Origin: an uncultured Bacteroides sp.
Lineage (GTDB): Bacteria > Bacteroidota > Bacteroidia > Bacteroidales > Bacteroidaceae
Direction: 5' to 3'
DNA length: 59,850 nt
Assembly (NCBI GenBank): GCA_949296855.1
Contig: CASFRN010000078.1
Span: 1-59,850, forward strand
Shown here: positions 24,405 to 51,075 of the stretch, in pieces
Layout of the letters: each line of letters begins with the position of its first letter
Position numbering within the stretch: position 1 is the first letter of the stretch
Position numbers and translations under genes: made by a program
Notes under the pieces: model-generated
What the model was told of the DNA's origin: nothing
The model's input: only the letters and a program-made list of their open reading frames with translations
Databases searched by the model: none

Positions 24405-25553
24405 TTAAATCAGCTTTACGAACTCATCGAAAAGGAACTCCGTATCCGTAGGACCGCTGGCGGCTTCGGGATGGAACTGAGCAGAGAACCACGGATTGCA
24501 CTTGTGGCGAATGCCTTCGTTCGACCCGTCGTTCATATTGATGAAGAGCGGTTCCCAGTCGGTGCCCAGCGTATTGTTATCTACGGCATATCCGTGGTTT
24601 TGACTGGTGATGAAACAACGCTCCGTGCCTACCATACGCACCGGTTGGTTATGGCTCCGGTGTCCGTATTTCAACTTGTATATCTTCGCTCCTCCCGCTT
24701 TCGAGAGCAATTGGTTTCCCATACAGATGCCGAAGATAGGGAGTTTCTCGTTCTGCATTGCCTTACGGATGTTCTGCACAGCGGCATCGCACGTATCAGG
24801 GTCGCCGGGACCGTTGGAGATGAAAAGACCGTCGAAGTCCAACCCGTTGAAATCATAGTCCCAAGGCACACGGATGACTTCTACGTTCCGCTTCAAGAGA
24901 CACCTTATTATATTAGCCTTCACGCCGCAATCCACAAGAAGAACCTTCTTCAATTGACAATTGACAATTGACAATTGACTATTCAGTTCTTCTTTGGGAG
25001 TATCAACAGAGAATGTACGGCTTTCGTTGCCTGCATAGACAATGATGTCCTTGCACGATACACGGTCTACATAATTTATGTCTCCATAATTGTCAATTGT
25101 CAATTCTCCATTTTCAATTTCATCATCGAAGACGATTTTCCCCATCATCACCCCATGTTCGCGAAGCACCTTGGTCAATTCGCGGGTATCGATGCCCGTA
25201 ATGCCCGGCACTTGTTCGCGCTTCAACCAGTCCGCAAGGCTCTCTACGGCATTCCAATGATTGTACCGCTCGCTATAATCGCTCACGATAATCGCCTCGG
25301 CGTGTATTCTCTCACTCTCCATAAACGTAGGCAAACCGTTCTCCGCAAACGTAAACGGAGGCACTCCATAATTGCCTACCAACGGATAGGTCAACGTCAT
25401 CAGCTGGCCTGCATACGAAGGGTCAGTCAGGCTCTCCGGATAACCGGTCATCGCCGTATTGAACACCACTTCGCCCGCTACTGGCTTTTCATAACCGAAC
25501 GACTTGCCGCTAAACCGGCTCCCGTCGTCAAGGATTAACGTCACGTTTCTCAT
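24405..25553 (-). CDS. carA: Carbamoyl-phosphate synthase small subunit (glutaminase)
   Basis: This 382-residue subunit releases ammonia from glutamine for CarB. The N-terminal domain runs VTLILDDGSRFSGKSFGYEK to about residue 145. The class I glutaminase domain starts near 203 (VLLVDCGVKANIIRC) and holds the nucleophile Cys277 in GICMGNQLL and the histidine block SAQFHPEAASGP. The linker between the domains carries two unusual segments, ENGELTIDN (147-155) and NSQLSIVNCQL (191-201), each encoded by AATTGAC-type 7-bp repeats. The frame stays open through both. Its ATG directly abuts the stop of the upstream small gene (TAGATG). Confidence 0.95.
   Translation of the reverse strand: MRNVTLILDDGSRFSGKSFGYEKPVAGEVVFNTAMTGYPESLTDPSYAGQLMTLTYPLVGNYGVPPFTFAENGLPTFMESERIHAEAIIVSDYSERYNHWNAVESLADWLKREQVPGITGIDTRELTKVLREHGVMMGKIVFDDEIENGELTIDNYGDINYVDRVSCKDIIVYAGNESRTFSVDTPKEELNSQLSIVNCQLKKVLLVDCGVKANIIRCLLKRNVEVIRVPWDYDFNGLDFDGLFISNGPGDPDTCDAAVQNIRKAMQNEKLPIFGICMGNQLLSKAGGAKIYKLKYGHRSHNQPVRMVGTERCFITSQNHGYAVDNNTLGTDWEPLFINMNDGSNEGIRHKCNPWFSAQFHPEAASGPTDTEFLFDEFVKLI
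24952..24979. repeat. Four tandem copies of AATTGAC inside carA
   Basis: Four perfect copies of the heptamer AATTGAC occupy 28 bases within the carA coding sequence, encoding LSIVNCQL on the minus strand. Because 28 is not a multiple of three, gain or loss of one unit would shift the carA frame. Confidence 0.95.
25088..25109. repeat. Inverted-orientation AATTGTC repeat inside carA
   Basis: Two copies of AATTGTC followed by AATTCTCC lie 108 bases from the first array and in the opposite orientation. They encode GELTIDN on the minus strand. Together the two arrays form an inverted-repeat pair flanking the conserved carA segment INYVDRVSCKDII. Confidence 0.9.
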
Positions 25554-28140: not shown

Positions 28141-28402
28141 AGCACATCCAGCCTTTTTGTCTGTAGCGACTGTGTTTTCCTGATGAGGTAGACACCTTTA
28201 CTGATAGCATAGACACATTATTACACTGCGCCCATTTGACGTGGAAAAAGAAGTCTGCAAAAACGGTTACAGTTACACCGTAAGCGATAAATCAAAATTT
28301 GCCTTACACACAATAACACTAGGCATCTGCCCGAATCAGCATTTCCTGTACGCCATCGAATAATTTTCAATTTTCAATTCTCAATTTTAATTTAAAAACT
28401 CG
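28141..28402. other. Decayed sequence between the transposase relic and aroA
   Basis: No intact gene is visible. An open stretch ending at a stop at 28361-28363 would read PFDVEKEVCKNGYSY and HTITLGICPNQHFLYAIE, which looks like the C-terminus of a lost gene I cannot identify. It has no start codon. AT-rich ATTTTCAATTTTCAATTCTC repeats follow up to the aroA promoter. Confidence 0.4.
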
Positions 28403-36184: not shown

Positions 36185-36272
36185 TAATGAAGAATGAAGG
36201 ATTGAGAATGAGTGAAGTTATTAATTCGCTCTTTATCCTTCATTCTTCATTTTCCATTCTTAATTCTTCATT
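36185..36272. repeat. Inverted repeat of the AATGAAGAATGAAGG type
   Basis: TAATGAAGAATGAAGGATTG... at 36185-36216 pairs with ...CATTCTTAATTCTTCATTA at 36236-36272. It separates convergent rfbB and thrC. The right arm overlaps the last codons and stop of thrC (MKN and TAA). Confidence 0.8.
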
Positions 36273-37561
36273 AGATATGCCTTGAACGAGGCGAAGTCTT
36301 TCGACATCGGGACGCTTTGCTTCGTACCGCTCATAAACGCCTGAAGTTTTTCGGGAATATTAACCTTGGTACCAATGATAGCCTCTACCGTTTGCAAGAA
36401 CTTGGCGGGGTGAGCCGTTTCGAGGAACACGCCCGTTTCACCCGGCTTCAGGTCTTCAGCCAACGCACGATAACCACACGCTCCATGAGGGTCGAGCAGA
36501 TAACCGATCTCTTCGTATGCCTTCTGCACCGTCTCGCGGATTTGCTCGTCAGTATAAGTCTCACCGCTGATTTCACTCGAAATGGCTTCGTGGCTTCCTC
36601 CGTATAGGTCAAGGATGCGGGCGAAATTGCTGGGATCTCCTACGTCCATGGCATTGGCAATAGTAGCTATTGAAGGACGGGGAGTGTACACGCCTGTCTT
36701 CAGATACTGGTAGAAAATATCGTTGCGGTTATTGGCTGCAATGAAGCGCTTGACGGGAAGTCCCATCCGCTTGCCGAAAAGCCCTGCGGTGATGTTTCCG
36801 AAATTCCCGCTGGGCACACAGATAACCAGATTATCTGCCTTGCCCAACTTCTTCATCTGAGCATAAGCATAGAAATAATAGAACGCCTGAGGCAAGAAGC
36901 GCGCCACGTTAATGGAATTAGCCGAAGTGAGTTGCATGTGCGCTTTCAGCTCTTCGTCCATGAAAGCGTTCTTCACCAACGCCTGGCAATCGTCGAACGT
37001 GCCGTCCACTTCAATAGCAGTGATATTCCGCCCCAAAGTGGTGAATTGCTTCTCTTGTATCTCGCTCACTTTTCCCTTCGGATAAAGCACATACACATGG
37101 ATGCCTTCCACACCGAGGAAACCATTTGCCACTGCGCTTCCCGTATCACCAGAAGTAGCGACCAACACATTGACCTGCTTCTTTCCTTCCTTGCGAATAA
37201 AATAGCCCAAGAGGCGCGCCATAAAGCGTCCACCCACATCCTTGAACGCCAATGTGGGTCCGTGGAAGAGTTCCAACGAATAGATGTTGTCCTTCACCTT
37301 CACTACAGGAGCATCGAAACTCAAGGTATCGTACACAATTTGTTTCAACACATCTGCGGGCACATCTTCGCCGAAGAAAGCATCCGCCACGCGGCAGGCT
37401 ATCTCCTGAAATGAAAGGTTTTCTATCTCATCGTAGAACGATGCGGGCAAAGGCTTGATTTCACGGGGCATATAAAGACCTTTATCGCCAGCCAACCCGC
37501 GTACTACGGCTTCTTCCAGCGTAGCGTCAGAAGCCTGCTTATTCGTACTATAATATTTCAT
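36260..37561 (-). CDS. thrC: Threonine synthase
   Basis: This 433-residue PLP enzyme converts O-phosphohomoserine to threonine. It starts MKYYSTNKQASDATLEEAV, and the PLP lysine lies in FHGPTLAFKDVGGRF. The loop VATSGDTGSAVANGF binds phosphate and VPSGNFGNITAGL is conserved. I chose the ATG at 37561 because nine upstream codons are not conserved in character and one in-frame GTG lies in the repeat. It is the last gene of the thrA operon. Confidence 0.95.
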   Translation of the reverse strand: MKYYSTNKQASDATLEEAVVRGLAGDKGLYMPREIKPLPASFYDEIENLSFQEIACRVADAFFGEDVPADVLKQIVYDTLSFDAPVVKVKDNIYSLELFHGPTLAFKDVGGRFMARLLGYFIRKEGKKQVNVLVATSGDTGSAVANGFLGVEGIHVYVLYPKGKVSEIQEKQFTTLGRNITAIEVDGTFDDCQALVKNAFMDEELKAHMQLTSANSINVARFLPQAFYYFYAYAQMKKLGKADNLVICVPSGNFGNITAGLFGKRMGLPVKRFIAANNRNDIFYQYLKTGVYTPRPSIATIANAMDVGDPSNFARILDLYGGSHEAISSEISGETYTDEQIRETVQKAYEEIGYLLDPHGACGYRALAEDLKPGETGVFLETAHPAKFLQTVEAIIGTKVNIPEKLQAFMSGTKQSVPMSKDFASFKAYLMKN

Positions 37562-37582
37562 AAGTATGTGGTTTTGTTTTTT

Positions 37583-37714
37583 CACCACAGATTACACAAA
37601 TTTTATCAATTACTAATTAAGAGTGAATAATGAATAACTGTAAGTATTTTCATCAGTCGTTATTAACTATTAATTGTTCATTATTAATTTATTTAATCTG
37701 TGTAATCTGTGGTG
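37583..37714. repeat. Composite inverted-repeat doublet inside the thr operon
   Basis: The outer arm CACCACAGATTACACAAATT starts at 37583 and its partner AATCTGTGTAATCTGTGGTG ends at 37714. An inner pair (AATTAAGAGTGAATAATGAA facing TTGTTCATTATTAATT) is nested within, leaving a short unpaired core. The copies at 45853 and 50956 share this two-layer build. It lies between the mutase-like gene and thrC. Confidence 0.9.
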
Positions 37715-50955: not shown

Positions 50956-51075
50956 CACCACAGATTACACAGATTTAAATAATTAATAATGAAGACTTAA
51001 TAGCAGCAAAACATATACCGTTATTCATTATTCACTTTTAATTATTAATTATTTAAATCTGTGTAATCTGTGGTG
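50956..51075. repeat. Composite inverted-repeat doublet
   Basis: The outer arms CACCACAGATTACACAGATT (from 50956) and AATCTGTGTAATCTGTGGTG (to 51075) enclose inner arms AATTAATAATGAAGAC and TTCACTTTTAATTATTAATT. It has the same two-layer structure as 37583 and 45853. It lies between the flavodiiron and YciO-type genes. Confidence 0.92.

Follow-up and report, generated by a model that had tools for sequence, protein, structure and literature searches.

Inverted heptamer arrays in the interdomain linker of carA, best read as tolerated coding hairpins at a site repeatedly replaced by recombination

Introduction

The described systems nearest to the arrangement reported here are the Rickettsia palindromic elements (RPEs) and quasi-palindrome template switching. 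In the portions of the sources available to us, RPEs are repeats of 100–150 bp, some of them in preexisting open reading frames (PMC3767692), and template switching between the arms of inverted repeats has been inferred both for coding genes of yeast (PMC8604942) and for RNA hairpins (PMC8794818). Long inverted repeats are likewise reported within translated mitochondrial genes of Nematomorpha (PMC6649704, seen in part). Heptamer repeats of the unit TAACTGA have been described from Beggiatoaceae, Cyanobacteria and some Bacteroidetes; in the part of that study at hand, they are mostly intergenic in the genome studied, with one repeat pair inside the putative purC of a Bacteroidetes species (PMC4679880).

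Here we describe inverted heptamer arrays within carA in a stretch of 59,850 nucleotides (the window; contig CASFRN010000078.1 of assembly GCA_949296855.1, an uncultured Bacteroides sp.), and compare them with the carA linkers of relatives. Among the literature matches listed, which cover subscription papers thinly, there was no report of heptamer hairpins in Bacteroides carA.

Results

The carA locus of the window

The carA gene and its repeat features, all on the minus strand, are as follows.

24405–25553, minus strand: carA, carbamoyl-phosphate synthase small subunit, 382 amino acids (open reading frame; NCBIfam TIGR01368, E = 3.8e-133, above cut-off)
24930–25130, minus strand: linker block; in other species, the matching block is replaced from one close relative to another
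24951–24983, minus strand: inverted-repeat arm, downstream in the coding sense, encoding NSQLSIVNCQL (TRF; 28 of 32 positions paired with 25088–25119)
24984–25087, minus strand: 104-base spacer, consisting of the conserved YGDINYVDRVSCKDII segment and an extension, AGNESRTFSVDTPKEEL (comparison with relatives; loop length)
25088–25119, minus strand: inverted-repeat arm, upstream in the coding sense, the ENGELTIDN region (TRF; duplex)
25107–25109, minus strand: GGA codon in the upstream arm, located by eye, where a perfect complement of the other arm would read as a stop (one stop-making mismatch in the window's locus, L089)

A preliminary description of this DNA had proposed that repeat DNA lies in frame inside a core enzyme gene. 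This is supported: the frame is that of CarA, and both (CAATTGA)n and its inverted counterpart keep that frame in the stretch joining the two CarA domains. Four exact AATTGAC units occur at 24952–24979, as described, the 108-base gap to the second array (24980–25087) is as given, and translation confirmed both peptides. By TRF, the downstream array comprises 4.7 copies with 96% matches. The upstream array, described as inverted AATTGTC repeats, is real but less regular than stated, with 4.6 copies and 84% matches; only two units are perfect, followed by AATTCTC and CATTTTC. With up to two mismatches allowed and overlapping registers on both strands counted, the window contains 11 matches to AATTGACAATTGAC; 100 shuffles gave 0.81 on average and never more than 3. 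The 28 paired positions of the stem are Watson–Crick and enclose a 104-base loop. As RNA, the array stretch folds with a z-score of −3.44, and none of 200 shuffles was as stable.

Linkers of relatives

We compared 227 loci with 210 unique linkers. In the genus of the window, 49 of 60 genomes gave a true CarA match (four further matches were paralogues or scrap), and 30 loci were fetched. In Bacteroides, the CarA N-terminus was found in 128 of 149 genomes; 112 of these loci were fetched, the 16 most distant being left out, and one frameshifted locus (L262) was set aside, giving 111. The named loci number 80, some from the same genomes as the Bacteroides set. Many of the compared genomes are incomplete drafts, and core trees are shallow.

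The linker measures 66 amino acids in the window's carA and 41–42 in 25 of the 30 loci of its genus. Five linkers in this genus reach at least 50 residues, and two of them have inverted arms: that of the window and that of G001, the only close genome, which carries the same arrays. The Bacteroides loci include 59 linkers of at least 50 residues, 47 of 41–42, and 34 with significant inverted arms; the named loci include 20 long linkers, seven with inverted arms, one of these from Prevotella (L061). Linker length varies across Bacteroidales. The comparison with relatives suggested in the preliminary description found both repeat segments missing from most of those looked at.

Palindromes of other kinds occur in carA linkers, with SLTPDPSPKGEG types in five loci (L055, L065, L076, L085 and L169). 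A different palindrome (ACACAGAGACAC..GTGTCTCTGTG) lies in frame at the upstream site of the L263 linker. Just before carA in L204 (9301–9400), outside called reading frames, is a G+C-richer heptamer hairpin with the unit AGCTACA, and the related locus L203 has a different array at that site. In four Bacteroides loci (L169, L225, L265 and L266, from G379, G438, G416 and G446), open frames of 1456–1520 amino acids continue past carA, which suggests carA–carB fusions in some Bacteroides.

Complementarity of the arms

Long linkers (at least 50 residues) number 78 of the 210, and in 37 of them the arms are complementary above all 100 shuffles; 41 show no significant arm complementarity. The highest complementarity score among 129 short linkers (at most 46 residues) was 16. 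Across 70 linkers, arms pair with their own partner at a score of 28.5, compared with 16.9 when arms are exchanged between species, and none of 20,000 permutations reached the own-pair score. With 53 representatives less than 75% identical, the scores were 22.9 and 14.2, and none of 50,000 permutations reached the former. The repeat unit matches within species and differs between them: among the 37 linkers it is AATGAAG in 18, AATTGAC in 12, AGTTGAG in five and GGTGAGA in one, and the one remaining linker has another palindrome. One and the same conserved segment is enclosed by the stem at all 37 loci. As in quasi-palindrome template switching, the arms are complementary beyond expectation and share a unit within species. 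No instance of the same change in both arms was seen between close pairs when alignments were inspected by eye.

If arm 1 complemented arm 2 perfectly, a stop codon would arise in 35 of the 37 linkers. In 33 of them a single mismatch alone averts the stop; the GGA codon plays this part in the window. The limit is partly built in, because the complement of such arrays holds TGA every 21 bases. Mismatches range from 2 to 22 per duplex, so most duplexes lie below the limit of symmetry; the best have two, one of them stop-preventing.

Replacement of the linker block between close relatives

The linker block comprises the arms and the middle segment. It differs strongly between close relatives with nearly identical flanks, and its own nearest relatives are often in more distant species. 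Among 51 pairs with carA core identity of at least 94%, 18 pairs, drawn from six groups of relatives, have linker identity below 0.80, with gaps scored as differences; the lowest core window in these carA pairs was 0.88. The 48-base middle segment also differs (0.60–0.83) in all 18. One pair, L119 and L141, is about 99% alike over 13 kb and differs at four internal blocks (an outer site, gltB, the carA linker and carB), all with heptamer arrays. Over aligned bases in windows of 500 bases between −9 kb and roughly +4 kb, the two are 97–100% identical, except for two carB windows at 92 and 96.

Six genome pairs yielded 24 internal diverged blocks, that is, blocks not touching an alignment end. 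Heptamer arrays are present in 16 and absent from eight; without carA, 11 of 19 hold arrays, whereas about 8% of 200-base blocks drawn at random from either genome would do so. Differing carA linkers were the reason for choosing five of the six pairs (the exception is L149/L151), and the gltB site recurs among pairs; the binomial tail of 6e-8 for array-bearing blocks assumes independent blocks, which they are not.

Nearest neighbours point the same way. The linker of L165 is nearest to that of L163 (core identity 0.872), whereas its core is nearest to L153 (0.956), and linker and core neighbours also disagree in L017, L119, L221 and L261. The best linker matches outside close kin lie at 0.73–0.89, and exact donors were not found among the compared loci. 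After G001, the linker closest to that of the window belongs to L153, with identities of 0.83 for the linker and 0.78 for the core; the other relatives in the window's own genus reach at most 0.69; from these identities, import from Bacteroides and ancient sharing appear equally possible. A quick core tree (143 rows) requires at least 28 changes of insert state and at least 45 of unit class, counts to be read with the many weak branches of such trees in mind (as shown for the protein tree).

Inserts in gltB and carB

Inverted heptamer inserts are present in gltB (NF008730) in four loci of 11 read (L196, L198, L202 and L206), and in carB in L196 only, of 11 read; the window's carB has no heptamer insert. 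The inserts read in both genes replace native residues and are not simply added. An inner motif, CCGCATGG, is common to gltB and carB of L196 and carA of L224. A composite 29-residue peptide, searched in 31 Bacteroides genomes, matched only gltB and carB of G300, a search too narrow to serve as a census of other genes.

Arrays elsewhere in the window and its genome

Two further array sites in the window were listed, without strand.

28362–28393: one heptamer array with the unit AATTTTC, lying upstream of both aroA and a TATCTTTG box (TRF)
36186–36272: inverted heptamer arrays with the unit AATGAAG, between two convergent genes and touching the last bases of the open reading frame 36260–37588

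The first of these had been noted earlier as a similar intergenic array at 28363–28390, and it proved real with slightly wider bounds. Within 260 bases it has no inverted partner scoring above 15. The TATCTTTG box is presumably a Bacteroides promoter box. Outside called reading frames, an AT-rich inverted heptamer array of TTATTCA type lies at 51021–51053, with a partner ending at 51002.

The genome of the window spans 3.46 Mb in 178 contigs and is 92.97% complete. A search of it for the same arrays, as had been proposed, gave 162 matches to the unit pattern (up to two mismatches), against 51 for a reversed control, with overlapping registers counted. By our own reading, 10 of 20 stretches around such matches show a heptamer inverted repeat. 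Crude reading-frame calls place the array span wholly in non-coding DNA in 10 of these 20, more than 90% in coding DNA in four, and in both in six; by this tally, arrays are therefore found both between genes and within frames. Four loci of this genome (L176, L178, L179 and L181) have arrays wholly within crude reading frames and may be further coding cases. We also looked in it for a second, donor copy of the carA linker, and found only array-sized partial matches. The loop motif CCGYRYGGCAATTSTYMATT, considered as an element signature, gave 18 matches against 4 for a reversed control, only one of them exact, and a single family is unconvincing.

Array length and reading frame

The preliminary description held that the array is prone to slippage, so that unit number varies. 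Length changes are indeed seen, but both clean cases amount to three units, or 21 bp, and stay in frame. Loci L198 and L199, 98% identical over 20 kb, differ by 21 bp in gltB, L199 having three units fewer in one arm, and arm 1 of carA in L012 is about three units longer than in L147. None of the 49 CarA sequences from the window's genus has internal stops, and 48 have an open frame of at least 349 residues, the exception being G022 with 210. In Bacteroides, 125 of 128 carA frames are open for at least 358 residues, and two of the remaining three run into a contig end (G341 and G426). The third, L262, comes from an 89% complete draft (G451) and is frameshifted, with one deletion of 23 bases, which includes the end of the downstream array, and a second of 65 bases farther on; from its sequence, it may be either a pseudogene or an assembly error.

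Discussion

On the sequence evidence, the carA arrays are best read as tolerated coding hairpins at a site that would be repeatedly replaced by recombination, their arms probably matched by template switching. We think it fairly probable that they represent, within a coding sequence, a class of inverted heptamer arrays also present in intergenic DNA of Bacteroidaceae, shaped by slippage, template switching and recombination together. Within the interdomain link of carA, the arms lie at two tolerant positions. Unit number would shift through replication slippage, with the frame kept by selection. One arm would template the other during replication, as in quasi-palindrome template switching, with stop codons setting the limit. 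Blocks could then pass between species in short tracts of homologous recombination, for which breaks or stalling at the hairpin may be the trigger.

Four other accounts were weighed. The hairpin could be a selected structure of the carA mRNA, such as an interdomain pause, stability or attenuation element, with selection keeping the arms complementary. The stable predicted fold of the window's stretch, the upkeep of complementarity while units change, and a stem enclosing the same conserved segment in 37 loci all speak for this. Set against it are three loci with native linkers (L017, L221 and L261) whose cores are 96–97% identical to those of hairpin-bearing L016, L009 and L153, and L133, a near-twin of L131 that has lost complementarity (score 15 against 46). 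A bias towards G–U pairs, considered as a mark of RNA selection, was not found: mispairs in 17 representatives comprise 9 G–U, 26 A–C and 38 others. We regard a selected RNA structure as unlikely. Much the same standing falls to a mobile palindromic element, REP-like or RPE-like, that depends on a transposase. The similar build of the inserts in carA, carB and gltB would fit such an element, as would the inner motif shared by two genes of L196 and carA of L224 and the unrelated palindromes, for example the SLTPDPSPKGEG types, at the same carA sites. Yet the carB and gltB inserts take the place of native residues, and casual inspection noticed no fixed element end or target duplication. Mobility by RAYT, as for REP elements, was set aside: the Y1 transposase family (PF01797), the one family searched, had no match in the window's genome (93% complete), while the control matched in 5 of 14 genomes.

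Neutral growth would mean that an unconstrained linker drifts and slippage lengthens the heptamer arrays, the match between arms being due to a genome-wide unit bias. This account would suit the variable linker length across Bacteroidales and the frequent arrays in the window's genome. It sits badly with arms that agree in unit and orientation far above the arm-exchanged controls, and with the replacement of the middle segment along with the arms. Among long linkers with scores of at least 25, there are also 36 inverted pairs to 9 direct ones, though 12 of the 78 have a direct score above their own shuffles. We consider neutral growth highly improbable. The same is true of phase variation, which the preliminary description had raised as a possibility for carA, with gain or loss of a unit switching the gene off or on. 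A 7-base unit is not a multiple of three, array length varies, and the draft with the frameshifted L262 has lost the end of its downstream array. Against these points, the clean length changes preserve the frame, nearly all Bacteroides frames are open and two of the three exceptions are contig ends, and the L262 deletion of 23 bases does not correspond to whole units and is accompanied by a second in the same gene. Given the open frames across the 60 and 149 genomes searched, we did not retain phase variation as the default reading; it is not supported in assembled genomes, which can hide minority variants.

A bolder form of the reading of tolerated, recombining hairpins can be offered tentatively, and we hold it to be rather doubtful: heptamer hairpins of Bacteroidaceae may be recombination hot spots that swap blocks of about 200 bases in carA, carB and gltB between species. 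If so, conserved enzymes would carry fast-moving, exchangeable cassettes with function kept; hairpins made of repeats would sit in core enzymes and pass between species as short blocks, and the symmetry of coding hairpins would be limited by stop codons. With dozens of alleles already sequenced, the locus lends itself to a natural test of hairpins as attractors of recombination and template switching.

How does the locus compare with known systems, as far as the accessible parts of the sources describe them? Like the TAACTGA repeats, the carA arrays are tandem units of 7 bp. Those repeats, however, are direct, have one unit and mostly sit shortly before start codons; the part of that paper at hand does not describe inverted pairs within coding linkers (PMC4679880). 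The Nematomorpha genes share with carA coding palindromes in translated genes, but there both arms encode conserved protein regions, whereas the carA arms encode a linker that many relatives lack. With quasi-palindromes the likeness is that one arm of an inverted repeat would template the other. The yeast events, in the text available, are clusters of a few bases, in contrast to the arms of about 30 bases, the turnover of unit types and the stop limit in carA, and the carA spacer of about 100 bases exceeds the spacers of up to 70 screened in the yeast study (PMC8604942), which counts against template switching. The likeness to RPEs, as they are partly described to us, is one of build: palindromic repeat DNA is tolerated inside existing genes at recurring sites, and in carA a palindromic repeat lies in frame within a conserved open reading frame. 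The carA arms differ from RPEs in being heptamer arrays with species-specific units that straddle a native segment.
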